From positions 1-64,000 of the forward strand of contig NZ_JANUCT010000003.1 of NCBI RefSeq assembly GCF_024808875.1: DNA of 64,000 nucleotides. Reading direction: 5' to 3'. Position numbers and translations under genes: made by a program. The notes under the pieces were generated by a model. That model did no database searches. It saw nothing but the letters and a program-made list of their open reading frames with translations, and was not told the DNA's origin. Shown here piece after piece: positions 37,468-63,688 of this stretch (positions are counted from its first letter, which is position 1; each line of letters opens with the position of its first letter). This DNA is from Methylohalomonas lacus (GTDB lineage: Bacteria > Pseudomonadota > Gammaproteobacteria > Methylohalomonadales > Methylohalomonadaceae).

Positions 37468-38778
37468 TCAGCGTTTCCAATCGATGCCGATCAGCAGTTC
37501 GCGGCTGGTCTGGAAACGCTCGTCGGGGTCCTTGGCCAGCAGGCCATCGACCAGCGGTTGGTACTTGCCGAGGTATTCCGGTAACTGCGGGATGGGTTCG
37601 ACGACGTGGGCGCGCAGCAACTCGCTCACCGAGTGACCGCTGTAGGGCCGCTTGCCGGTGAGCATCTGAAAGAAAATGACGCCCAGGCTGTAAAGATCGC
37701 TGCGATTGTCGACTTTCATGCCGCTGCCCTGTTCCGGGCTGATGTAGTAGGGCGTGCCGACGATCATGTTGTTGACCGTGATGTCCTCCATGTCCTCTTC
37801 GCCACGCTTGGCAACGCCGAAATCGGTGATGGTCAGGGAACCGTCATCCTTGAACAGAATGTTTCCCGGCTTGATATCGCGGTGGACAATGCCGCGTTCA
37901 TGGACCGCGCCGAGCCCGGAGGCCATCTGGCGCAGGTATTCGAGCGCTTCCGCCGGGCGGATGCCTTCCTTGATACGCTTGGTCAGGTCCCCGGCGGGGA
38001 AGTACTCCATGGCGATGTAGGCAAAGTCGGCGGCAAACGCGCGCTCGTAGATGCGTACCACGTGCGGGTGATCGATATCCGATAACAGGTTGTACTCGAG
38101 CATGAAGCGCTTCAGTGCAGTTGGATCCTCCATGCCGCGGGTGAACATGATCTTCAGCACGACATGAATGTTGTCCTCGAGACGTTCCCCCAGCACCACC
38201 GTGGACATGCCGCCGTGACCGATTTCCTTGATCAGGCGATAGCCGGGAATCTCCAGTGCCAGTGCCTCGCTGGTGGCGACGGCAGCTTCCGATGCGGGCA
38301 TATTCTGGTAGGTGGTCTCGTGTGCGGGATCGACATCACGCAGCGTGGTTTCATGCGGATCCTGGGTGCTCTCATCATCCGGCGCCAGGATTTCCAGTTG
38401 TTCATGGCCGGCGGCCTCGAGCAGCTTGCCCAGCAGTGCGTCGCCCTCGACGTCCTTTTTCAGAAGGTAGTTGTCAGCACCGAGCTTCATGGCATCAATG
38501 GCAACGCGCGTGCTGTCCTCGCCGGTCAGCATGAGAATCGGCGGCATATCACTGTAGGCCTTGAAGGCGCGCAGCCAGTCGAGACCGTTTTCCTCTGTCA
38601 GGCCAAGGTCGTAATCGAGCAGCACCAGGTTGAATGCCTGCCAGCCGAATTCGTCATCGGGTAAGCCCTGTGCAGGATCGTATTCCACCACCTCGGCGGT
38701 TGGGAACTCGCCTGCCAGCCGATGCACGATCAGCTGACGATACTCGGCGGAATCATCTATAAGCAGAATCTTCAACAA
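37468..38778 (-). CDS. Receiver-Ser/Thr protein kinase fusion
   Basis: 436 residues. Residues ~1-125 are a CheY-like receiver (LLIDDS acidic pair, phospho-Asp in LVLLDYDLGL, LLKKD lysine). Residues ~180-430 are a eukaryotic-like kinase: GHGGMSTVV glycine loop, Lys in VVLKIM, catalytic HRDIKPGN, DFGVAK and SPEQ. There is no membrane segment or sensor domain, so phosphorylation of the receiver, presumably by the CheA-like kinase upstream, would control Ser/Thr kinase activity. Translation starts at one of two consecutive TTG codons preceded by GAGGG. It lies ~100 bp after the CheA gene. Confidence 0.9.
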   Translation of the reverse strand: MLKILLIDDSAEYRQLIVHRLAGEFPTAEVVEYDPAQGLPDDEFGWQAFNLVLLDYDLGLTEENGLDWLRAFKAYSDMPPILMLTGEDSTRVAIDAMKLGADNYLLKKDVEGDALLGKLLEAAGHEQLEILAPDDESTQDPHETTLRDVDPAHETTYQNMPASEAAVATSEALALEIPGYRLIKEIGHGGMSTVVLGERLEDNIHVVLKIMFTRGMEDPTALKRFMLEYNLLSDIDHPHVVRIYERAFAADFAYIAMEYFPAGDLTKRIKEGIRPAEALEYLRQMASGLGAVHERGIVHRDIKPGNILFKDDGSLTITDFGVAKRGEEDMEDITVNNMIVGTPYYISPEQGSGMKVDNRSDLYSLGVIFFQMLTGKRPYSGHSVSELLRAHVVEPIPQLPEYLGKYQPLVDGLLAKDPDERFQTSRELLIGIDWKR

Positions 38779-38881: not shown

Positions 38882-41800
38882 TCAGGCGCTGGTCGAGTAG
38901 CTGTGCTCCAGCAGGTCATGAACATGTTGCAGCAGTTCGTCCTCGGAGAACGGCTTGTTGAGGTAGACATCGATACCCGCGTCGCCGGCCATGTGCCGGT
39001 GTTTCTCGGTCGAGCGCGAAGTAATCATGATGACCGGAATGGCGGACGTATCATTGTTGGCCTGCAGGTGTGAAGCCAGTTCGATGCCGTTCATGCGCGG
39101 CATTTCCAGATCGGTAAGGATGATGTCCGGGCGTTTCTTCTCGATCAGCGACATCGCCTCGAGCCCGTCCTTGGCCGTACGCACGTCATAACCGGCGTCA
39201 CGTACCACCTGGGCCAGTGTGCGGCGGGCGCTGATCGAATCGTCCACCACGAGGGCGACCGGCAGACTGCGGCGAATGCCGGTGTCGGTCAGTTCGCCCT
39301 GTTCGACGCGCTCGTCCAGTGGGGTACGGATCAGTTCCGGCAGATCCAGCACCGGTACGACGCTGCCATCGCCGAGAATGGTGGCGCCGACAATACCGCG
39401 AATCTTGCGCAGGTACGGCCCCAGCGGCTTGACCACCAGATCGCGGCTGTCGATGACCTGCTCGATCTGGACCGCACAGTTGAGCGCTTCCTCGCGCACC
39501 AGCAGCGCCGGCCGGCTGTTGCGATCGCCGCGTCGGCGATCCTTCGGCAATTGCAGCAGGTCATCGATCATGTGCAGCTCCAGGTCCTCGTCCTCAAGCT
39601 GGTAGCGGGCTGCGTCGTCATCGCCGCTGACGGTGCCGTCATCGGGGTGCAGGATCTGGATGATGCCGCGCGTGGAAATCGCCATCACCTGCTTGCGGAC
39701 CCGTACCAGCAGGCCGTGGGTGGTCATCAGCGACACTGGCAGGCGCAACTCGAACTCGGTGCCCTGGCCGGGTTCGCTGTGGATCAGGATGCTGCCCTTG
39801 ATGGCCTGCAGCTGCGTGGCAACGATATCCATGCCGATGCCGCGCCCCGAGGTCTGCGTCGTTTCGCTGCGGGTAGAGAAGCCCGGCCGCAGGATCAGGC
39901 GCCGCAGTTCGTCCGCCGAGAAGTTTTCATCAGCGTGAATCAGGCCACGTTTTTCGGCCAGCTGACGAATGGTATCCACATTCAGTCCGACACCATCGTC
40001 GCGGCAGCGCAGGACCACCTGGGTGCCCTCGCTGGCGCAGCTCAGCGTGATCGTGCCACTGGGCTGCTTGTCCCGGCGAATGCGTTCCTCGCGTGTCTCG
40101 ATACCGTGGTCGACGGCATTGCGCAGCATGTGCATGAGCGGATCGACCAGGCTGGTGAGGATATCGCTGTCGAGTTGCGTGTCGGTGCCCTCCAGGATCA
40201 GGTCGGCCTGCTTGCCGGTAACGCGGCAGGTCTGGCGCACGGCGCGCTGCAGCCGCGGCACGATACTCTTGATCGGTACCATGCGCGTGCGCATGACCAG
40301 TTCCTGGACCTCGCGCTGCAGGCGCGACTGGTTGACCAGCAGTTCGTCCAGGGTGCGCAGGCGCTGGCCGATGTCCTGGTCGAGCTCCTGCGAGTCGGCG
40401 GCCGCCTCGACCAGCTGATGGGTGACGGTATGCAACTCGTTGTACTGTTCGAGTTCCAGCGTGTCGAACCCGCTGTCGCCGGACTGGCTGAGCTTGTAGG
40501 CAATGCCGCCAACGTCGACCTGTTGTTCAAGTTGGCCGACCAGGTCTTGGAACAGGTTGTGCTGTTGCAGCAGCGACTGGTTCTGATCGCTGCTCTGGCG
40601 TACCTGTTCCTGCAGCTGGGCGGTCACGATCAGCGTCTCGCCGACCAGCCGCAACAGATCGTCGATCAGGTGGGACGGTACCCGCAGGCTGGTTGACTGC
40701 TCTTCCTCCGCCTCGCCCGACGGCCGGTCGGAGGGCTTGTCCGACGGTTTATCCGACGGTTTGTCGGCAGTGGGCTCCGCAGCGTCCGTGGCGGTTACCG
40801 GGGCATCGTCGTCCATGGCAGCGACGCCCTCGGTTTCGATTCGATTCACCCAGTCGAGCACGGCCTGCAGGGTCTGCCTTGAGCCGGCCGGGGCCGAACC
40901 GCGTTCCAGCAGGGCCTCGCTCATCTCCTCCAGGCAGTCGGCGGCGTCAACCAGGGTCAGCGCCAGCGGTTGCGACGGCATGCGCTCGTGTTCGACCAGG
41001 ATGACCAGCAGATCCTCGATCTGGTGGGTGAGGGTGGCGATGCCGCGTACGCCCACGGTGTTAGCGGCGCCCTTGATGGTATGGGCGACCCGTTGGGCGC
41101 GTTCCAGATCCTTCTTGCCGCCGTTACCGCCGGCCAGCGTCTGGATCGCGGCGGAAAAGGTTTCCGTCTGGCCGGGCAGCTCCTCGAGCAGGCCATCCAG
41201 CAGTTCCTGGTTGATATCGTCCGGTAACTGCAGGCTGACATGCTCGTCGGTGGCGGTTTGCAGTCGCTCGTCGCGCGGTGTGTCGTCACTGATGTAGGCG
41301 GCGCCGAGCAGGTCGACCAGCGGCTGGCGCAGTTCGTCCAGTAGCGGTTCCGGCCAGGCGTCAGCGGCCAGGCTGTCGACCAGTGCCTGGCTGTATTCGG
41401 CATCGCCGACCGCGCCGAGGTAGGCGCCAACGCGATCCGGCCAGTCGCAGAGCAACCGTACCTGTTGTTCATTCAGGGCTGCTGCGGATTGTTCCAGTGC
41501 CCGGATGTTGCCCTGGAGGACTTCACAGGCCTGCTGCAGCCCGGCCAGCTCGGCCGCCTGACAGGCGTTACCGAAGCGCTCGATGCGCATGGCGTATTGC
41601 AGCAGGCTGTCACTGCGCAGCGCCGGGGTCAGATCATCGGCGTACAGCTGCGTCTGTAGATGTCCCGCCTCGTCGTGCATCTGTTGCATTTCCGAAGCCA
41701 GCATGTCGACCAGTTCGAGGCTGATCGGCTGCGGCGACGGTGTCGTGGGCGTAACGGCCGACGCCGGCGCTTCGGGACCGGCGGTATCGCTGGTCGCCGG

Positions 41801-43120
41801 GCTGACATCAAAGTCGGTGGCGGCGTCGGTTGTGGCCGGTTCGCTCGCCGTCGTCGTCTCGCCGACCTCGGTCGTGTCCGCGCTTGCGCCCGTACCGAGC
41901 ATTTCGCGCAGGATGGTGACGTCACCCTCGTCGAGCGGGTTCGGCCAGCAGGAATCGGTGAGGCAACCGAGCAGGGCATCGGCAGCGTTGCGGTTGTCGG
42001 GGTTGGCCAGGTAGTCGCGGACGTCGCGGCTCCACTGCCGCACTTTCTGCAGCTGGGTGTCGTTGAGACCAGTCGCGGTGGCGGCCATGTCCTCAAGCTG
42101 CTGCTGCAGCAACAGGCAGATGTCCTGCAGACCGAGCTGATCGCGCTCGGCGGCGCTGTCGGCCAGTGCCGCCAGCGGCGTTGTCAGGTAGGTCAGGGTC
42201 GTTGGATTGTCGGTTTCGACCTGTGCCAGCGACGCGTCAAGACTGGCGAGTGCCGCCGGTTCAAATTCGCCGGTCGTCTGCTGCGGCGCCGGAAACGGCG
42301 TGACGTTGGCAACCGGTGGCGGCTCGTCCTCCAGCGGTGATTCTGGCGCCTCGATGCCGAACAGCTCGTACAGCACCATCGCGTCCTGATGGCTGAGTGC
42401 TGTCGGCCAGTGGGGCTGGCAGAGATTCTGAATCAGGGCGGCGCGCGAGGCGCGGTCGTCGCTCTGGCGCAGGCAGTTAGCGGCCAGACCCGACCAGGCG
42501 GTGAGCAGCGTTTTCTGTACATCGCTGAGCGGTTCACCGTCAGCGACGATATCGCCGATATTCTGCTGCAACAGCAGGGCGCAGTCCTGCAACGCCGTTT
42601 CACCGGTATCGCCAAGACACTGGGCGAACTGCCCGAGTGCCTGTTCCACCTGCTGCAGGCTTGCCGGCACTTCATCATCGATGGCGCGAATGGTTTCGGC
42701 CAGCCGTGTCAGTTCAGCGTGCAGGTCATCGTCCCGGTCTGCCAGCATGTCGAGCAGTACGCCGGCGTCCGTGTCACTCATCGGTGCCGGCCAGACTGGG
42801 GCGGTCAGGGTATCCAGTAATTGCCGGCTGCTGGCCTTGTCGGCGCCGCTTTCGAAATAGTTTCCCAGCAGCGTCGGCCAGTGCTGTAGCAGGGCAAGCT
42901 GATCGGTCGTAAGCGTACCGCTTGCGGTGACATCTTCCAGGTGCTGCTCCAGGAGCAGGATACAATCCTGCAGACCGAGAAGATCCTGCGCCGCGGCCAC
43001 GTCGGCAAGCTGTTTCAGGGCCGTGACCAGTGCCGGAATATCTGCCAGCGTTTGGCAGTCATTGGCTGCCACCTGTAATCCGGTGATTGCCTCCTGCAAC
43101 TGGCTGTCAGCTTCGGTCAT
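38882..43120 (-). CDS. ChpA/PilL-like hybrid CheA kinase
   Basis: 1412 residues. Residues 48-607 hold four imperfect ~80-residue repeats (GLQD...WP.PL...ML). A single convincing Hpt site AHTIKGAANT follows (His ~680), then a dimerisation helix, an HATPase domain (MLRNAVDHGIE and DDGVGLN), a CheW-like domain and a C-terminal receiver (VVDDSISARR, ILTDLEMP phospho-Asp, NKPFSEDEL). The architecture is that of the type IV pilus kinases ChpA/PilL. It should phosphorylate the PilG/PilH-like regulators encoded upstream and perhaps the receiver-Ser/Thr kinase downstream. Cytoplasmic, clustered with the MCP. Confidence 0.92.
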   Translation of the reverse strand: MTEADSQLQEAITGLQVAANDCQTLADIPALVTALKQLADVAAAQDLLGLQDCILLLEQHLEDVTASGTLTTDQLALLQHWPTLLGNYFESGADKASSRQLLDTLTAPVWPAPMSDTDAGVLLDMLADRDDDLHAELTRLAETIRAIDDEVPASLQQVEQALGQFAQCLGDTGETALQDCALLLQQNIGDIVADGEPLSDVQKTLLTAWSGLAANCLRQSDDRASRAALIQNLCQPHWPTALSHQDAMVLYELFGIEAPESPLEDEPPPVANVTPFPAPQQTTGEFEPAALASLDASLAQVETDNPTTLTYLTTPLAALADSAAERDQLGLQDICLLLQQQLEDMAATATGLNDTQLQKVRQWSRDVRDYLANPDNRNAADALLGCLTDSCWPNPLDEGDVTILREMLGTGASADTTEVGETTTASEPATTDAATDFDVSPATSDTAGPEAPASAVTPTTPSPQPISLELVDMLASEMQQMHDEAGHLQTQLYADDLTPALRSDSLLQYAMRIERFGNACQAAELAGLQQACEVLQGNIRALEQSAAALNEQQVRLLCDWPDRVGAYLGAVGDAEYSQALVDSLAADAWPEPLLDELRQPLVDLLGAAYISDDTPRDERLQTATDEHVSLQLPDDINQELLDGLLEELPGQTETFSAAIQTLAGGNGGKKDLERAQRVAHTIKGAANTVGVRGIATLTHQIEDLLVILVEHERMPSQPLALTLVDAADCLEEMSEALLERGSAPAGSRQTLQAVLDWVNRIETEGVAAMDDDAPVTATDAAEPTADKPSDKPSDKPSDRPSGEAEEEQSTSLRVPSHLIDDLLRLVGETLIVTAQLQEQVRQSSDQNQSLLQQHNLFQDLVGQLEQQVDVGGIAYKLSQSGDSGFDTLELEQYNELHTVTHQLVEAAADSQELDQDIGQRLRTLDELLVNQSRLQREVQELVMRTRMVPIKSIVPRLQRAVRQTCRVTGKQADLILEGTDTQLDSDILTSLVDPLMHMLRNAVDHGIETREERIRRDKQPSGTITLSCASEGTQVVLRCRDDGVGLNVDTIRQLAEKRGLIHADENFSADELRRLILRPGFSTRSETTQTSGRGIGMDIVATQLQAIKGSILIHSEPGQGTEFELRLPVSLMTTHGLLVRVRKQVMAISTRGIIQILHPDDGTVSGDDDAARYQLEDEDLELHMIDDLLQLPKDRRRGDRNSRPALLVREEALNCAVQIEQVIDSRDLVVKPLGPYLRKIRGIVGATILGDGSVVPVLDLPELIRTPLDERVEQGELTDTGIRRSLPVALVVDDSISARRTLAQVVRDAGYDVRTAKDGLEAMSLIEKKRPDIILTDLEMPRMNGIELASHLQANNDTSAIPVIMITSRSTEKHRHMAGDAGIDVYLNKPFSEDELLQHVHDLLEHSYSTSA

Positions 43121-43153: not shown

Positions 43154-44587
43154 TTATACGGAGATTTCCTGGGTCGACTCATTGCCGTCTTGATCGTCGT
43201 CATCATCACTGTCGGTCTGGAATACGCCGACTGAGGCGACCAGCGCCATGGCGTTTTCCACCAATTGATCAGTATAGGCGGACTGTTCCTGCAGATGGCT
43301 GCCGGTCTTGCGCACGGTATCGCGAATGACCTGGGTACGATCGCGCAGCCGGATACTGATATTGGCCTGGGCGCTGGCGCCGGATGCAATCTTTTGCACC
43401 ATGCCCACCAGTTCAGAAGTGGTCGCCTGGGTATTTTTCATTTGCTCGCCGGCCTCCTCGGCGAGTTTACTGCCGCCGACCACCTGCGTGATCAACTCGT
43501 TCATGGTGCTGACCGTACTCGAGGTTTCGACCTGGATGTTGTTCACCAGGGTAGCGATCTGTGAGGTCGCCTCGCGCGCGTTCTCCGCCAGCCGCTGCAC
43601 CTCGTCGGCGACCACCGCGAAACCGCGGCCGGCCTCACCGGCGGAGGCCGCGTGCATGCTGGCATTGAGCGCCAGGATATGGGTACGCTCGGAAATGTTG
43701 TTAATCAGGTTGACCGCGGTACTGATTTCCTGGGAACGCTCGCCCAGACGCTTGATGCGTTTTTCTGTCTCGCGAATGGTGTCGCGGATCTTGTTGATGC
43801 TGTCGACGGTATTGTTTACCGTTTCCATCGCCGTGCTGGTCATTTCGATGGCTTCGTCAGCCGAGCGGTTCGAGGCCTGGGCAAGCTTGGCAATGCGCTG
43901 CATCATCTCAGTGGCCTTGGTCAGCTCGGAGGCGGTGTTTTCGATCTCCTCGCGTTCCTGATTTGCCAGTAACAACACGTTGTCGGATTGCGACTTCACC
44001 AGGTTCGAGGCCTCGGCGACATCACTGGAAATGCGCATGACCTCGTTCAGCACCTTGGCGGTTTCCGTGGTCATGAGGTTGAGTGCATCGGCAAGTGGGC
44101 CGGTCACGTCCTCGCTGACTTTGGCGCGGATGGTCAGATTCTTTTGTGCCAGCTGAGCCACCGTTTCCAGCAGGGCAACGATCGAGTCGTTCAGCTGCTC
44201 GTTTTCGTCCTCGATTGTGGCCAGTGCCGAGACGCGATCATTGAGGATATTATCGATGGCCTCGCCGACCTCCTGAAATTCATCACCGGAACGAATGCCC
44301 ATGCGGGCATCCAGATCGCCGTCCCCGATTTTGCGCATGATGGTTTTCAGTCGCAGCAGAGGCTGCGTCAGGCGGGTGGCGAAATAGGAACAGCCGAGGG
44401 TGACAATAATCGTGATGATTACGGCCGCCGCCGCGCCACCCATGAGGAGTTGACTGTGATCACCCTCGATACGACTGATGGCGATAAGCAGGGCGGCAAT
44501 AACCAGCAGATAAAGTACACTGCCCGTGACAGCGGCCAGGAAAATCTTGTACTTGACGCTAGCCTTGTTGCCAGTGTTTTTACTCAT
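43154..44587 (-). CDS. Methyl-accepting chemotaxis protein, PilJ-like, without periplasmic domain
   Basis: 477 residues. Two membrane segments (~18-40 and ~50-68) are separated by only ~10 residues, so there is no periplasmic sensor domain. A HAMP domain follows, then a long coiled-coil signalling region with the hairpin tip ERTHILALNASMHAASAGEAGRGFAVVADEVQRLAE (~320-355). It couples to CheW and CheA. The acidic tail contains a DSDDDDDQD run. The ATG at 44587 was chosen for GGGGAG nine bases upstream. No CheR or CheB gene is linked. Confidence 0.9.
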   Translation of the reverse strand: MSKNTGNKASVKYKIFLAAVTGSVLYLLVIAALLIAISRIEGDHSQLLMGGAAAAVIITIIVTLGCSYFATRLTQPLLRLKTIMRKIGDGDLDARMGIRSGDEFQEVGEAIDNILNDRVSALATIEDENEQLNDSIVALLETVAQLAQKNLTIRAKVSEDVTGPLADALNLMTTETAKVLNEVMRISSDVAEASNLVKSQSDNVLLLANQEREEIENTASELTKATEMMQRIAKLAQASNRSADEAIEMTSTAMETVNNTVDSINKIRDTIRETEKRIKRLGERSQEISTAVNLINNISERTHILALNASMHAASAGEAGRGFAVVADEVQRLAENAREATSQIATLVNNIQVETSSTVSTMNELITQVVGGSKLAEEAGEQMKNTQATTSELVGMVQKIASGASAQANISIRLRDRTQVIRDTVRKTGSHLQEQSAYTDQLVENAMALVASVGVFQTDSDDDDDQDGNESTQEISV

Positions 44588-44737
44588 GACCAACGCTCCC
44601 CAATGCGATCGTAGACTCGGCCTGGCCGTTTATCTCGTCTGAATTTTTGCAATACAACAGTCCCACCCTATCGGGCGGCTGGAAAAGATCATTATCTGTC
44701 GATGGATGGTGAACGTATGCAACGCCAGTCCATACCA

Positions 44738-45325
44738 TTACCAGGACAACGTATCTGTGTTCATGCCGGAATCCGCCAGCAGTTCGGCAAATAACTCGCG
44801 ATGATCGACTTCCAGCCAGACCTGTTCGCCATAGCGGAAAGCGGCATTGACATGCTCATGAATGCTTTCCGGCAAATCGATCGGGATTGCGGCGCGCTGT
44901 TCCGGCTCGTCAGGATCAATCTGTAGTGCCTGGGGCAGTCCATCGATATAAATGCCCACCGCGCGTTCACCCTGGTCAAGCACCAGCAGGCGCTGGTCAT
45001 CGGCATGGACGGCCGTATTGTCCAGCCGCTTCAGGAAGTCGAAGACCGGCACCAAATTACCTCGCAGGTTGATAACGCCCAGTACCCATGGCCGGGTATT
45101 GGGTATCCGGTAAATCTCGACGTTCTGTACAACCTCGCAGAGTGTATGGCTGTCAATCAGGATATGCTGACCACCAATGCGAAAGCCGTAGCGCATGTTG
45201 CGCAGCTGCTCGGCCTTTTCCTCATGATCGGTTAAACCCTGGAACGGATCGAAGTGATCCAGTGACTGACCGACCATCATGCCGGTCAGGTTGGCGAGTG
45301 TGTCTTGTTCCTGATCATTATGCAT
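44738..45325 (-). CDS. CheW-domain coupling protein, PilI-like
   Basis: 195 residues with one CheW domain (~50-190): FRIGGQHILIDSHTLCEV, VLGVINLRGNLVPVFD and a late EQRAAIPIDLPESI segment. A ~45-residue N-terminal extension rich in Asp/Gln precedes it. It should bridge the MCP and the ChpA-like kinase. It lies between the pilH-like gene (22-bp gap) and the MCP gene (150-bp gap). Confidence 0.88.
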   Translation of the reverse strand: MHNDQEQDTLANLTGMMVGQSLDHFDPFQGLTDHEEKAEQLRNMRYGFRIGGQHILIDSHTLCEVVQNVEIYRIPNTRPWVLGVINLRGNLVPVFDFLKRLDNTAVHADDQRLLVLDQGERAVGIYIDGLPQALQIDPDEPEQRAAIPIDLPESIHEHVNAAFRYGEQVWLEVDHRELFAELLADSGMNTDTLSW

Positions 45326-45347: not shown

Positions 45348-45713
45348 TTAACTGCAGGCCTTGATCTGATCCATGATTTGTTGTGCGGTGAAAGGCTTGG
45401 AGACCAGGTCCTTGCCACCCTGCATCTTTGCCCAGACGCGATCGGCTTTCTGGCGCTTGCTGCTGACAAACACGACCGGTATGGCCTGCGTGCTACTGTC
45501 ATTGGTAAGCGTACGCGTGGCCTCATAACCATCCATTTCATCCATGACGATATCCATGAAAATGATGTCCGGTTTCTCCTGCTTGGCCATTGCAACTGCT
45601 TCGCGACCATTGCTGGCCGTGATTACCGTGCAACCGGCATCACCGACAATTTTTGCCAGATTCGAACGATCAGTCGACGAGTCGTCAACGATCAAGACCT
45701 TGTTTATCGCCAT
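45348..45713 (-). CDS. PilH-like single-domain response regulator
   Basis: 121 residues: a bare receiver with KVLIVDDSSTDRSNLA, phospho-Asp in IIFMDIVMDEMDG and the conserved Lys in VSKPFTAQQ. It resembles PilH in length and position. Two adjacent ATG codons are possible; the second (45713) has GGAGG at a better spacing. It probably acts as a phosphate sink or motor signal in the chemosensory pathway. Confidence 0.88.
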   Translation of the reverse strand: MAINKVLIVDDSSTDRSNLAKIVGDAGCTVITASNGREAVAMAKQEKPDIIFMDIVMDEMDGYEATRTLTNDSSTQAIPVVFVSSKRQKADRVWAKMQGGKDLVSKPFTAQQIMDQIKACS

Positions 45714-45792
45714 CATACACCTCCATCAAACGACAACTACAACACATCCTCAACAGGCGGACACGGTCCGCTCCATTTATAATGACCGCGGT

Positions 45793-46614
45793 TCAGACAG
45801 TGGCTGAGCCAACTGCGCGCGGTTTTTTTAGATAATTCTGTACTACTTCCTGAAAGACAGCTTCACCAACCGGCTTGATAAGGTACGTGTCACAGCCGGC
45901 CAGTTTGCCCTTGATCCGGTCGGCGGGTGACGAGTTGCCGGTCAGCATTATGACCGGTGTCTCCTTGGCCTTGCCCTGCTTGATGACTTTGCATATCTCG
46001 TAGCCGTCGACACCCGGCAGGATAACGTCCAGGAAAATCAAGTCATAGGTGTTACTATTGATCAGTTCAAAAGCCTCTTCACCGGTTTCAGCGAAATCGA
46101 CTTTTTCGGCAAAGCGTTTCAGTGCCTGATCCAGCTGGATACGCACGGGCAGGCTGTCATCGACAACCAGTGCCGCATAACTGCTACTGGCTACTGATGG
46201 TGCCGGTTGCGATCCCGCCGTCGCCGACGTGGGTTGGCTGGTAGCGCTGAACGCAACGTCACTGCTCAGACCCAGCTCGTTACTTGCAACCTGGTCGAGG
46301 ATGCTGATAGCACGCGAAGCGATCAGCGGCCGACGAACCTGGTAGTGTTTGGTCTGAAATTCACGGTTCTGTGACACCAGTACTGACGATGGAATCGCCA
46401 GACCGCTGTTATCCAGCCGGTCGCGATACTGGCGCCATTGCACCAGGGCAGAGGGCTCGTCGGCATTGACCATGAGAATGTCGGGTCGGGCATTCAGTTC
46501 GGCAAAGACATAGGTCGTTGCCCGGGTTTCCGAATGCTTGAACGCCGCCTGCAGTCGTTTCTCCTCCTGCTCGGGGATACCGATGACGGCGACATTGACC
46601 GGATTCTCACTCAT
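45793..46614 (-). CDS. PilG-like response regulator with N-terminal extension
   Basis: 273 residues. The C-terminal ~125 residues are a receiver (ALVVDDSLPVRIQLDQALKR, phospho-Asp in LIFLDVILPGVDGYEICK, LIKPVGEAV). The N-terminal ~130 residues look like a decayed receiver or small alpha/beta domain (NVAVIGIPEQEEKRL, DILMVNADEPSALVQWRQYR) lacking an acidic pocket. The ATG at 46614 was chosen because it follows the upstream stop by ten bases; an in-frame start further up would lie inside that gene. PilG normally drives pilus extension. Confidence 0.82.
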   Translation of the reverse strand: MSENPVNVAVIGIPEQEEKRLQAAFKHSETRATTYVFAELNARPDILMVNADEPSALVQWRQYRDRLDNSGLAIPSSVLVSQNREFQTKHYQVRRPLIASRAISILDQVASNELGLSSDVAFSATSQPTSATAGSQPAPSVASSSYAALVVDDSLPVRIQLDQALKRFAEKVDFAETGEEAFELINSNTYDLIFLDVILPGVDGYEICKVIKQGKAKETPVIMLTGNSSPADRIKGKLAGCDTYLIKPVGEAVFQEVVQNYLKKPRAVGSATV

Positions 46615-46624
46615 GGTGATTGTT

Positions 46625-47626
46625 TCAGTTGTCCTCGACGACCATGTAGACCAATGTCTGGTTAAGGAGCTGGTAGGCAATTTCACCGAAGGTCATTGGT
46701 CCGAGCATGTGCGATGTCTGTTTACCCTCGAGTTCCGAGTACATGTAATTCAGCACACAGTTGCAGCTGAACGTGACATCGTGATCCAGCTTTGGCAGGG
46801 CATTGCGGAATTCACTGACATAGTCGTTAACCGGTTTGGCCAGTTTGTACTCGACACCGCTGAAGACCGGCGCGTAGAACGATACGGTTTTCTTGTCCTG
46901 GTCGACTTCCTGGAACGAAACGTTCAGCTTGGCGCCGGAATAGTCGGCAACCAGTGGCTGCCGGGTATCAACATTGTGTTCCTGCAGGTAATCGGCAAAG
47001 TTCTGTTCGACGCCATTGATCAGCACCTTGTCAGTCGCAAACCCGGTTTGTGGAAATTCGAACGTATCGCCGTCGCCCTGTTCCTGGATATTGACGATAC
47101 CGATGTGGGCAGCTTTACCGGGCTTGAGTGCAACATGCATGACGATGGCATTTTCGGTTGAGCTCTCGCCGGTGCCGCCATTGAACACGGTTGGCTTGAC
47201 CTTGCCGAGATCATCGAGATGGATACCGGTAATCCAGCCGGCAATCGGCTTGATGAACATGTCCTCGTATTCAGGGGCATGCTGGGCGTATTGCAAGTGC
47301 ATGTCGGTCAATGCCGGGATCAGGAGAATCGTGAAACCATCCTCCGGTGCATCCTTGGCAATGTTGTGGATGGTGCCGGTGTTGTAGAACTTGATCTGGA
47401 TCTTCTTGGCCAGAGCCGGATCCAGCTCGTTCACGAAGATCATGTCCTGACTGGTTTTGCCGCCTTCCTGGGACATGAAGTAGGGGATGGAACCGCCGAT
47501 CCAGCGACCTTTCGGCAACTGTTTCAGAAGGTTTTCATCGCCGGCGAGCCACAGCACCTTGCCGCTCTCGATGGCGGCTTTGGTTTCATCCAGCGTACAA
47601 AGACGGGGTTGCAGAATATCAGACAT
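46625..47626 (-). CDS. FIST-C-like protein of unknown function in the chemosensory operon
   Basis: 333 residues, soluble. The last ~100 residues resemble a FIST C-terminal domain: FSCNCVLNYMYSELEGK followed by MTFGEIAYQLLNQTLVYM, compare FSC...G.FTYGEI.....NQT in FIST sensors. The first half (KGRWIGGSIPYFMSQEGGKTS, IAGWITGIHLDDLG) is only weakly FIST-N-like. FIST proteins are thought to sense small ligands and often accompany signalling genes. A GAGGAG Shine-Dalgarno precedes the ATG. It lies 20 bp after the ISL3-like repeat gene and 10 bp before the PilG-like gene. Function unknown. Confidence 0.6.
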   Translation of the reverse strand: MSDILQPRLCTLDETKAAIESGKVLWLAGDENLLKQLPKGRWIGGSIPYFMSQEGGKTSQDMIFVNELDPALAKKIQIKFYNTGTIHNIAKDAPEDGFTILLIPALTDMHLQYAQHAPEYEDMFIKPIAGWITGIHLDDLGKVKPTVFNGGTGESSTENAIVMHVALKPGKAAHIGIVNIQEQGDGDTFEFPQTGFATDKVLINGVEQNFADYLQEHNVDTRQPLVADYSGAKLNVSFQEVDQDKKTVSFYAPVFSGVEYKLAKPVNDYVSEFRNALPKLDHDVTFSCNCVLNYMYSELEGKQTSHMLGPMTFGEIAYQLLNQTLVYMVVEDN

Positions 47627-47645: not shown

Positions 47646-49508
47646 TCATGCAGCTCTTAGCTGTTCGAGTTCTGCGCGGTGTTTGTTCTGATGTTTTATG
47701 AAGTATTGTCTTAAAATCTTGGCACCGGCCAGACGCGAGGCGTCGGTCGGATTGTGTTCGATCGACAGACGAATGCGTTCCAGCATCATCTTCAGACCGA
47801 CGGCATCGGTCATGATCTGAAGTTCCCCGTTGATCAATCGCTGCCAACTGGGATGCGTGATGGCCGGAATCACGGCACTGTGCTCGTCGTCATGGGCGAC
47901 AGGCTGGTGTGCCGACTCATCACCGGTTAGCATCCGGATCTCGGCTGCATGACGATGCTGGTTCTTGGTGAAGTACTGTCGCAGCATACGCGCGCCGGCG
48001 AGGCGGTTGGCTTCGCTCGGTTTGCGGGCAATGGCCTGACGTACACGTTCCAGCAGCATCTTCAGGCTCACGGCATCGGTACGCAGGCTGATGTCGCCAT
48101 TGATCAGCCGTTGCCAGTTGGGGTGATCCTCGGCTGGCAGTTCCGCCGCGCTGACAGCGGCATGGCTGTCATGTGTGCCGGCACCGGCCAGCAACTGATT
48201 GATCTCGTCCGGATGCTTGCTGCGGTTCTTTTCAAAGTACTGGCGCAGTACCTTGGCGGCTGCCACGCGGTTACCTTCGCTCGGATTGCGGCTGATGGCC
48301 TGGCGTACCCGCTCAAGCAGCATTTTCAGACTGATGACGTCGCTTTGCAGCTGGATGTCGCCACTGATCAGGCGTTGCCAGACCGGGTCGCGCTCACTGG
48401 GCAAAGGCTGCCGGGCGGTTTCTGTACTGGCCACCGCTGCTGCTGCAGTCGGCTGCGGCGTGGCGCCACCCAACTGGGCGATTTCACTGCCGAGGCGCGT
48501 CTGATGCTTGGCAAAGAACTGTCGCAGTATGCGCGCCCCGGCCAGGCGGTTGCTTTCGGCCGGGTTCCGTTCAACCGACTGGCGCACACGCTCCAGCATC
48601 ATCTGCAGGCCGACGACACGCGTCTCGATTTGTTGCTCGCCATTGATGAGCTTCTGCCAGACAGCCGCCGACTCCGGTGGCAGGCCGCTGGCGCCGGCAT
48701 GGTCAGCTCCGGCGCGGCTGGCCATGGTAGCTTGGTCGGCACCCAGAAGCTCGATTTCATGCTTGAGCAGCTGCTGGTTCTTGATGAAGAACTGGCGCAG
48801 CGACTGCGCACCGGCCAGGCGGGTCTGTTCACCGGGATCCTTTTCGATATTGCTGCGGACCCGCTGCAGCAGCATGCGCAGAGCCACAGAGTCGGTCTGG
48901 ATTGGCAATTCGCCGTTGATCAGTCGTTGCCAGCCCGCGTGATCGGCGCCCGGTATATGGCTGGTGTCGGCAAGATCGAAATCGTGGCCGCTATCGCTGC
49001 CCGGGGCAGCCGTGTCCGCCGCTGGCGCGGCATCGCGGCCGGCAGGCGCGATGCCGGTCAACTCGCTGATCTCGCGCGCCTCACTGGAGCTGACACTGGC
49101 CAGTCGCGCGGCGATCTGGTTTGTTGGCGCAGCCTGCAGCGCGGCGATGACGTGGTCCTGCATGGCCTGGGTGAAGCGGCTGCCGCTTGCGGCCCAGTCC
49201 TGCATGCAGATACAGTCACCGCGCTCCGAGTGCACTGTGCCGGCCGGCGGCACATGCAGGTAAGTACGCAGATTTGCCACCGGTAGATGGCGTAGGGCTA
49301 CGGCTTCGTAGTCCTCCGCGCGCGGCAGGCTGGCCTGACAATGTGGGCAGGTAGCCTGGTCACTGGAACCGAACAACCCCTTTTTACGGCCACCGACAAA
49401 ACCGATATAGATGTCGAGTCGGTTGGACGGCGGATCGATCTCCACCGCCTGAACCTGCCAGGGATCCTGCAATCCCAGAATTTGTTTGCAAAAATCAAGA
49501 TCCTGCAT
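47646..49508 (-). CDS. ISL3-transposase-like zinc ribbon fused to five tandem repeats
   Basis: 620 residues. Residues 1-~125 match the N-terminal region of ISL3-family transposases: LGLQDPWQVQAVEIDPPSNR, then CPHC (54-57), RHLPVANLRTYLHVPPAG (73-90), a second Cys pair (C99, C101) and SGSRFTQAM. The transposase DDE domain is absent. After a ~65-residue Ala/Asp-rich linker come five repeats of ~70 residues at 189, 279, 372, 461 and 551, each of the form W..LI.G......D...L.MLLERVR..I..NP.E..RLAGA..LRQ.F.K. The ATG at 49508 follows AGGGGGA. It is the first gene of the chemosensory operon. No function is known; a scaffold or ligand-binding role is a guess. Confidence 0.8.
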   Translation of the reverse strand: MQDLDFCKQILGLQDPWQVQAVEIDPPSNRLDIYIGFVGGRKKGLFGSSDQATCPHCQASLPRAEDYEAVALRHLPVANLRTYLHVPPAGTVHSERGDCICMQDWAASGSRFTQAMQDHVIAALQAAPTNQIAARLASVSSSEAREISELTGIAPAGRDAAPAADTAAPGSDSGHDFDLADTSHIPGADHAGWQRLINGELPIQTDSVALRMLLQRVRSNIEKDPGEQTRLAGAQSLRQFFIKNQQLLKHEIELLGADQATMASRAGADHAGASGLPPESAAVWQKLINGEQQIETRVVGLQMMLERVRQSVERNPAESNRLAGARILRQFFAKHQTRLGSEIAQLGGATPQPTAAAAVASTETARQPLPSERDPVWQRLISGDIQLQSDVISLKMLLERVRQAISRNPSEGNRVAAAKVLRQYFEKNRSKHPDEINQLLAGAGTHDSHAAVSAAELPAEDHPNWQRLINGDISLRTDAVSLKMLLERVRQAIARKPSEANRLAGARMLRQYFTKNQHRHAAEIRMLTGDESAHQPVAHDDEHSAVIPAITHPSWQRLINGELQIMTDAVGLKMMLERIRLSIEHNPTDASRLAGAKILRQYFIKHQNKHRAELEQLRAA

Positions 49509-61879: not shown

Positions 61880-63688
61880 TCAGCGCAGCGGCAGACCGCC
61901 GCGCGACCGGTTCCTGATGTCTGCCAGGGTCGCCGTCGGGTAGTAATCACCGCGGTAGTCGCGCCGCCACCACTGGCCATTGTCGTCAGCCGTCCTGAAA
62001 TCCGTGAACCGGTAGTGGAACAGGCGCGCGCGGATATACCGCGGGCCGTTTTCGGGAAACGGGTTGTCAGCCAGCAGAGCCGTGATCGCCGGCCGGTTTT
62101 CCAGCAGGCCGACGAGCAATGGCGCGAACCAGCGCTGGCGGTCGGCGCGGCTCAGGGCGGCGAACCACAGCTGCCAGTCGAGCCGCGGCTGGTGCGGAAT
62201 GTTCCAGCCCGGCGCGCGCGCCGGATCGCCCGGCTTGTAAGAGAATTCGTAAGCGCGCCAGTTTTCGCCGTCACGCGAACCCTCGATCACGATCTCCGGG
62301 CGCCGCGTGGTCATGTTGGCAAACAGGCCATAGGGATTGACGATATGAAACGGCGCCAGCGCCTGATCGATCGTTTGCGCCACCGGTATGACCTGCTGGC
62401 GATAGTGGCGACTCATCTGGTTGATGCCGGGCAGCACGATCAGCACCGCCAGCAGCAGGCACAGGCCAGTCTGCAACGGTCTACTGGCGCGCTGCGGTGC
62501 CGGCCAGCCGCGCGTGCGGGCGAGGGCAGCGTCGTCAAACAGCCACAGTGTCAGCAACAGGGTCAGCAGATTGAAGAAGTTGTAGTTGCCGGTGAGCGCA
62601 ATGGCGATTTGAAACCCGATGAGCAGCCAGGCGAACAGCATGCGCGGCCGGCGCGGGGCGAACACCAGGAATACCAGTACGATCTCGATCAGCAATGTCG
62701 CGGCCGTTGCCGCCTGCAGCAGCGCCGCGGGTAATTGATGCACGTACCAGGCCAGCGGCGTCGGTAACGGCTGGGTCGCAAAGTGATGACTGAGCGCCGT
62801 CAGGCCGGTCCAGGTCGGGTCGCCGCTGGCGAGTTTGGCAAAGCCGGCCATGAACACGTAGCGAAACAGCAGCCAGCGATACAGCCAGCGGCTCAGGTTC
62901 GGCCAGGCGTTGACGAAGACGGCGATAAAACCGGCCTCGAGCAGCAGGAAGTCCCACTGGAAATGGAAGAAGTCCTGGCCGCCCTGGACCACGCTGAGGT
63001 AGAGCGCGAACGCCGCCGCCAGTGCCGGCGTCGTTAGCCGGTTGGCAACTACTGCCACGCCACTGAGCGCGCCGGCCAGGCAGAGTAACTGCAGCGCCAG
63101 GTCGCTGTGCGCCAGCCACAGTAAGGTTGGCGCATGGTACCAGGCGCCGCTACCGTAATAACCGTGCTGTTGTTCGAGAAACTCGCTGACGGGTAACAGA
63201 CCGTCAGCACCGACCAGGCCGGTGATCTGGACGCCGGCCGAGGCGAAGGCAAACACATAGATGAGGCCAAGGCCGCGCAGAAACCACCACTGCACGTGGT
63301 CGTAGCGTGCCGCTGTACGCCAGGGTCCCCACAGTTGATGGCTCAGTAGCCGCAGCAGGCCGCGCCGGCGCGCGCACAAGTCGTAGATCCGTTCCGCCAG
63401 CCAGGCAAAGCCGGGTACGAAGCGGTAGCACCACCAGCCCGACGGCCGGTCGGCGCGTTGTAACAGCCGGAAAGTCGCGGCGGCGCCACTGTGAATGTGG
63501 CCGTCGCTGTCGATGTACTGGATCGAGCGGCGGCAGTCGGCGGCGCTGAGCCGGGGATAGTCGGCCAGTGCCGACTGGTAGCTGCGATAGATGACGCGAG
63601 CACCGGTCAGGCCGAGCCAGTAGTTCACCCACTCGCGGCAAATGCCACAGTCGCCATCGTAGATCAGTACCGGGGTTGTCCCAGCCAT
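61880..63688 (-). CDS. DCC-domain / lipase-maturation-factor-like membrane fusion protein
   Basis: 602 residues. Residues ~5-115 are a DUF393/DCC thioredoxin-like domain with YDGDCGICREWVNYW (CxxC). Residues ~130-600 form a multispan membrane region resembling eukaryotic lipase maturation factor 1 and HTTM proteins: a WWFLRGLGLIYVFAFASAGVQITGLVG first segment, QWDFLLLEAGFIAVF, LFRYVFMAGFAKLASGDPTW and a late GNYNFFNLLTLLLT. LMF-type proteins help fold secreted lipases; the DCC part could supply thiol chemistry. Convergent with mug by two bases. Confidence 0.8.
   Translation of the reverse strand: MAGTTPVLIYDGDCGICREWVNYWLGLTGARVIYRSYQSALADYPRLSAADCRRSIQYIDSDGHIHSGAAATFRLLQRADRPSGWWCYRFVPGFAWLAERIYDLCARRRGLLRLLSHQLWGPWRTAARYDHVQWWFLRGLGLIYVFAFASAGVQITGLVGADGLLPVSEFLEQQHGYYGSGAWYHAPTLLWLAHSDLALQLLCLAGALSGVAVVANRLTTPALAAAFALYLSVVQGGQDFFHFQWDFLLLEAGFIAVFVNAWPNLSRWLYRWLLFRYVFMAGFAKLASGDPTWTGLTALSHHFATQPLPTPLAWYVHQLPAALLQAATAATLLIEIVLVFLVFAPRRPRMLFAWLLIGFQIAIALTGNYNFFNLLTLLLTLWLFDDAALARTRGWPAPQRASRPLQTGLCLLLAVLIVLPGINQMSRHYRQQVIPVAQTIDQALAPFHIVNPYGLFANMTTRRPEIVIEGSRDGENWRAYEFSYKPGDPARAPGWNIPHQPRLDWQLWFAALSRADRQRWFAPLLVGLLENRPAITALLADNPFPENGPRYIRARLFHYRFTDFRTADDNGQWWRRDYRGDYYPTATLADIRNRSRGGLPLR

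Follow-up and report, generated by a model that had tools for sequence, protein, structure and literature searches.

The closest described counterpart of the operon examined here is the Pil-Chp system of Pseudomonas (PilG-PilH-PilI-PilJ-ChpA), whose receptor PilJ uses a periplasmic domain to bind ligands and sense them (PMC12632253). Intracellular sensing is represented by FIST proteins such as NosP, which bind heme/NO and also associate with, and control, histidine kinases encoded alongside them (PMC12570481, PMC8846402). Two further families bear on the locus: the ISL3 transposases (PF14690, PF13542 and NF033550), and DUF6976 (PF22396), to which Pfam assigns no function and on which a literature search returned no paper. 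The same search returned nothing relevant on ISL3 in connection with chemosensory systems.

The window, by which we mean the whole 64-kb stretch of Methylohalomonas lacus DNA that was analysed, carries the single chemosensory operon known for this organism, opened by a gene for an ISL3-like domain fused to five repeats. Auxiliary cytosolic sensors that feed kinase or chemosensory pathways are a known kind of system; what appears to be undescribed is the repeat domain together with its link to DUF6976, since the repeat has no Pfam model and no paper on either was found in the literature searched.

The ISL3-type domain and the five repeats

The gene lies on the minus strand, with its ATG at 49508, its last codon extending to 47649 and its stop codon to 47646, and a purine-rich, Shine-Dalgarno-like stretch (AGGGGGACGGAATCAATG) is located 5' of the start. 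Its features are as follows (the repeat E-values come from a profile built from the same five repeats that it scores at ~1e-37 or better):

47646..49508, minus strand: ISL3-N/five-repeat protein gene, operon gene 1 (620 aa)
49044..49508, minus strand: N-terminal domain, residues 1-155, derived from an ISL3 transposase (homology, predicted fold, Cys positions)
48738..48947, minus strand: repeat 1, putative four-helix DUF6976-partner domain (repeat profile E 1.2e-37)
48465..48674, minus strand: repeat 2 (E 1.8e-38)
48186..48398, minus strand: repeat 3 (E 5.2e-39)
47922..48134, minus strand: repeat 4 (E 8.5e-41)
47652..47864, minus strand: repeat 5 (E 1.8e-40)

The original prediction, made by reading the sequence, was of an ISL3-like N-terminus devoid of the DDE domain, and all comparisons agreed with it. 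With residues 1-163 alone as the query, matches were obtained to PF14690 (E 7.4e-5) and PF13542 (E 3.2e-4); NF033550 matched residues 49-147 (E 2e-8), tblastn against annotated ISL3 transposases gave a best E of 5e-6 over residues 1-133, and profile-profile alignment with six ISL3 N-termini scored 99.5% (E 1.7e-22, 136 columns). The DDE catalytic domain (DDE_Tnp_ISL3) was absent from the 620-aa protein by domain search, residues 190-620 being occupied by the repeats. Judged by these matches, residues 1-155 derive from the zinc-ribbon/HTH part of an ISL3 transposase: the N-terminal ~150 residues share with such enzymes the motifs PW..V, CP.C, RHL...TYLH and W...GS.FT and the HTH, whereas the window protein lacks the DDE domain, is fused to repeats and is encoded in a conserved operon. 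The gene is single copy in the genome, which together with its conserved operon position argues against mobility.

The N-terminal domain consists of an alpha/beta part with a C54xxC57/C99xC101 zinc-ribbon-like site, followed by a helix-turn-helix at ~104-151. The AlphaFold2 model has pLDDT values mostly >90 for this domain and for the repeats, with low-confidence linkers. The N-terminal profile also matched PDB entry 8vd6, a multi-repeat, HTH-like chain; the score adds up five weak matches and indicates only that this stretch is HTH-like. Cysteines 54, 57, 99 and 101 are retained in the window protein, which could therefore still bind zinc. Unlike in ISL3 transposases, however, the four-Cys site is kept by only some of the ISL3-N/repeat proteins; the ligands are gone from most relatives, and zinc binding is thus not the conserved function. 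In locus L002 (G009:C98:725-1096), a transposase N-terminus of ISL3-like type is interrupted by two in-frame stops and is probably an ordinary decayed IS.

The five tandem repeats foreseen in the original prediction were also recovered. They start at W193, W284, W377, W465 and W555, spaced 88-93 residues apart, and each is an all-helical unit of ~65 residues that the AlphaFold2 model folds into a short helix followed by two long ones and a final helix. The identity between repeats is 46-63% at the amino-acid level and 59-68% at the DNA level, so they are old copies under selection, not the product of a recent duplication. No Pfam family covers the repeat, in line with the suggestion that the domain was undescribed; matches to DUF4783, NDUF_B6 and similar Pfam entries over the repeats lay below the cut-offs of those families and were treated as noise. 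Searches of PDB sequences with the repeats gave chance-level matches only (for example, troponin C), and Foldseek with the complete 620-aa model returned nothing significant, as expected of a flexible chain.

Partnership of the repeat domain with DUF6976

The gene 3' of the repeat protein gene encodes a DUF6976 protein:

46625..47626, minus strand: DUF6976 (PF22396) protein, conserved partner (PF22396 E 1e-141)

Searching 369 genomes of the class with the five-repeat profile gave three clear matches outside the window, together with two marginal ones. The clear matches are an ISL3-N protein with four repeats (G341), a degenerate ISL3-N with one (G302) and a free-standing single-repeat protein of 98 aa (G283), and in all three, as in the window, DUF6976 is the gene directly downstream. 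A separate DUF6976 search of the class genomes found the same genomes and one more, G013, where a divergent lone repeat lies upstream of DUF6976 (L023).

A direct scan of a larger contig collection with P0001, the window protein, gave no match; loci were found with a DUF6976 alignment, and 80 from many phyla were fetched (the best 80 of at least 576 candidates, and the most query-like). The survey covered up to 10 kb on each side of mostly metagenome-assembled, in some cases short, contigs, and repeats were called with an iterated repeat model at domain E-values of ~1e-15 or better. The repeat is immediately upstream of DUF6976 on the same strand in 78 of these best 80 loci, usually as a lone ~75-aa single-repeat protein, and no repeat was found near DUF6976 in the other two (L030 and L076). 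In seven Chloroflexota loci (L052, L054, L078, L098, L099, L102 and L103) the repeat and DUF6976 are encoded in a single uninterrupted frame, joined by a short linker.

These neighbourhoods indicate that the constant partner of the repeat is DUF6976, not the chemosensory genes. The original prediction had named a constant chemosensory association as a point to test. Such an association is found in a gammaproteobacterial multi-repeat clade (the window and five other assemblies) and in one separate case, L035, where a lone repeat and DUF6976 precede REC-CheY-CheW-MCP-CheA, but it does not hold generally. DUF6976, an uncharacterised and widespread family, thereby acquires a partner that is nearly constant, and a role that can be tested.

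On the DUF6976 tree, the rows with an ISL3-type N-terminus require three state changes, compared to a mean of 27 after shuffling, and fall into two groups: one gammaproteobacterial, including the window and one Desulfobacterota contig, the other mainly betaproteobacterial. The betaproteobacterial proteins join ISL3-N to one repeat and have no chemosensory neighbours. ISL3-N with four or five repeats occurs in one gammaproteobacterial lineage, and the four- and five-repeat proteins accompanied by chemosensory operons are confined to that group (the window, L024, L025, L026, L028 and L029; L028 and G341/L017 are apparently one contig). A widespread single-domain protein seems to have been the starting point, to which the ISL3 head and the repeat amplification were added. 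In Beta- and Gammaproteobacteria alike, a transposase N-terminal domain has been recruited into proteins linked to signalling.

Other pairs stand alone or beside signalling genes, depending on the locus. In Chloroflexota, fused or paired modules adjoin a GAF-histidine kinase and a LuxR-type regulator, hybrid kinases lie beside the module in L043 and L083, and CheR does so in L023. One Chloroflexota contig carries two repeat-DUF6976 fusion genes with adjacent two-component genes (L103:6388-10978 and L054:9641-13817). One contig bearing a Heimdallarchaeota label also has a repeat-DUF6976 pair (L047:9693-11014), which may reflect binning contamination or transfer. In some Betaproteobacteria, a gene for an FKBP-type peptidyl-prolyl isomerase closely follows DUF6976 (L045:4258-4839 and L056:7166-7651).

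The chemosensory operon

The repeat protein had been described as opening a PilG/H/I/J/ChpA-like operon. It is indeed encoded by the first gene, but that description omitted the DUF6976 gene (47626..46625), which separates it from the chemosensory genes:

45793..46614, minus strand: receiver-domain protein whose N-terminal domain, ~140 residues long, is conserved in the clade (domain search, locus comparison)
45348..45716, minus strand: CheY-like response regulator in a PilH-like position (domain search)
44738..45325, minus strand: CheW in a PilI-like position (domain search)
43154..44593, minus strand: methyl-accepting protein with two TM helices ~10 residues apart (domain search, TM comparison)
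38882..43120, minus strand: ChpA-like hybrid CheA with Hpt, HATPase, CheW and REC domains (domain search)
37468..38778, minus strand: REC-Ser/Thr kinase with HRD and DFG motifs (motifs, locus comparison)

The order repeat protein-DUF6976-REC-CheY-CheW-MCP-ChpA-REC/Ser-Thr kinase is conserved in the window, L024, L025, L026, L028 and L029, except that L028 and L029 showed no separate CheY gene. No Pfam family matches the ~140 residues at the N-terminus of the first REC protein (46200-46614 in the window), a stretch that is conserved across the clade and also in L035. A single Pfam Hpt domain was recognised in the ChpA-like protein, whose N-terminal ~600 residues may hold degenerate ones. The window genome has several PilB/PilT-type ATPases, and one MCP was found in it; Rfam gave no match in the 64-kb window.

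The operon resembles Pil-Chp in its REC-CheY-CheW-MCP-ChpA order, in the REC-bearing hybrid CheA and in the genomic PilB/PilT-type ATPases. It differs in the repeat protein and DUF6976 placed in front, in that no CheB/CheR gene was seen, and in the REC-Ser/Thr kinase after ChpA, which is present in all multi-repeat chemosensory loci and is unusual as an output of T4P-type chemosensory systems. The receptor differs too: its TM helices are only 7-21 residues apart in all six loci, so there is no periplasmic sensor domain, whereas the L035 receptor is PilJ-like, with ~155 residues between them. Since the receptor of the multi-repeat lineage has no periplasmic ligand-binding domain, chemical input must enter elsewhere, and input to this operon has apparently shifted from a receptor ectodomain to a soluble scaffold.

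DUF6976 as a candidate sensor and the role of the repeat protein

A repeat-DUF6976 fusion (L099) was modelled with a pLDDT of 91.4 and a pTM of 0.86. The alignment contained fused and DUF6976 rows only, because one that also mixed in repeat-only rows misplaced all lone repeats. The best PDB matches of the model were to FBXO22, a FIST protein (probability 0.97/0.96, E 4.7e-4/2.3e-3, with TM-scores of only 0.34-0.44), which was the sole fold match at E<0.001; a FIST profile likewise finds FBXO22 entries as its only solved relatives. Further likenesses are the DUF6976 C-terminal motif GP.TFGEIAYQLLNQT, which resembles the FIST motif GFYSYGEI...HNQT, and the co-encoding of the module with kinases or chemosensory genes in several taxa. 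DUF6976 differs from FIST/NosP in having a dedicated helical partner and in escaping the FIST models: the window protein matched PF22396 only, and neither PF08495 nor PF10442, no FIST or FIST_C match was found in the window's genome, and hhalign of DUF6976 against FIST was weak (probability 4-5%, P ~0.01) and confined to the FIST_C end. DUF6976 is tentatively regarded as a divergent FIST-type intracellular sensor, plausibly a new branch of these proteins; the relationship is a lead, not a proof.

We hypothesize, with about an even chance of being right, that the repeat protein is a multivalent scaffold of cytoplasmic, FIST-like DUF6976 sensors that feeds the T4P-type array. Each repeat would bind one DUF6976 protein, and the number of repeats per chain therefore gives a direct stoichiometry prediction. 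In most bacteria the repeat and DUF6976 would work one to one as a small unit, which some Chloroflexota encode as a fusion; in the gammaproteobacterial lineage the partner domain would have been joined to ISL3-N and multiplied to four or five per protein, allowing a single chain to gather several DUF6976 sensors. The module would most likely supply the input that a receptor without an external sensor domain cannot. We infer a signal path from the ligand state of DUF6976 through the ISL3-N/repeat scaffold to the receptor/CheW/ChpA, with CheY-like proteins and the REC-Ser/Thr kinase as the presumed outputs. A scaffold or input role, as first proposed, hence remains the best reading, with the partner corrected to DUF6976.

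More tentatively, the window protein may be pictured as a "sensor rack", in which a transposase head and five docking domains load FIST-like cytosolic sensors onto an array with a blind-stalk receptor, as an outgrowth of an unrecognised repeat-DUF6976 two-protein module found in many bacterial phyla and on the one contig labelled Heimdallarchaeota. A docking role for the ISL3 domain is presumed in this picture, but the betaproteobacterial ISL3-N proteins without chemosensory neighbours imply that ISL3-N need not dock on an array.

Those same proteins lend some credit to an unlikely alternative, a one-component transcription regulator in which the ISL3-N HTH binds DNA and DUF6976 switches binding on or off via the repeat; the window protein would then control transcription of its own chemosensory operon. 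HTH_Tnp_ISL3 was recognised in 7 of 20 N-termini (best E 4.7e-9) and the HTH helices are predicted; the betaproteobacterial pair is mostly alone, without kinase or array genes, and its recognition-helix region carries W[KR][FLY][KR] motifs. However, most members lack the zinc cysteines, and in the window and L024-L026 the W..K motif is gone and the recognition-helix region is acidic (e.g. SSSEAREISELT, net -2 to -1), which makes DNA binding less likely for the window clade than for the betaproteobacterial proteins.

The first position in the operon and the multivalent, bead-like architecture would also suit a localisation hub whose repeats bind parts of the chemosensory or pilus machinery (ChpA, PilG-like REC) and place the array at a pole, with DUF6976 as an accessory, for which FimV/FimL, the polar hubs for PilG in Pseudomonas, offer a precedent (PMC12632253). 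Dozens of repeat-DUF6976 loci without adjacent chemosensory genes, and the fusion of the repeat, among partner genes, to DUF6976 and not to array proteins, make this quite improbable. To a similarly small degree, DUF6976 might be an enzyme, with the repeat serving as a small subunit or helping in its assembly, in which case the operon context would be incidental: many DUF6976 residues (G, W, C, N, E) are invariant and many pairs precede an opposite-strand gene and are thus two-gene units, but no enzyme fold was matched significantly in the PDB fold search of the fusion model and the linkage to signalling genes recurs. An insertion sequence remnant or pseudogene, which the ISL3 homology might suggest, was rejected as having a negligible chance, given the intact 620-aa frame, the repeats conserved at the protein level, the recurrence of both architecture and operon in another five assemblies, and no second PF14690 match in the window's genome.

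Elsewhere in the window, at 61880-63688, lipase maturation factor domains are fused behind a DCC1-like thiol-disulfide oxidoreductase domain.
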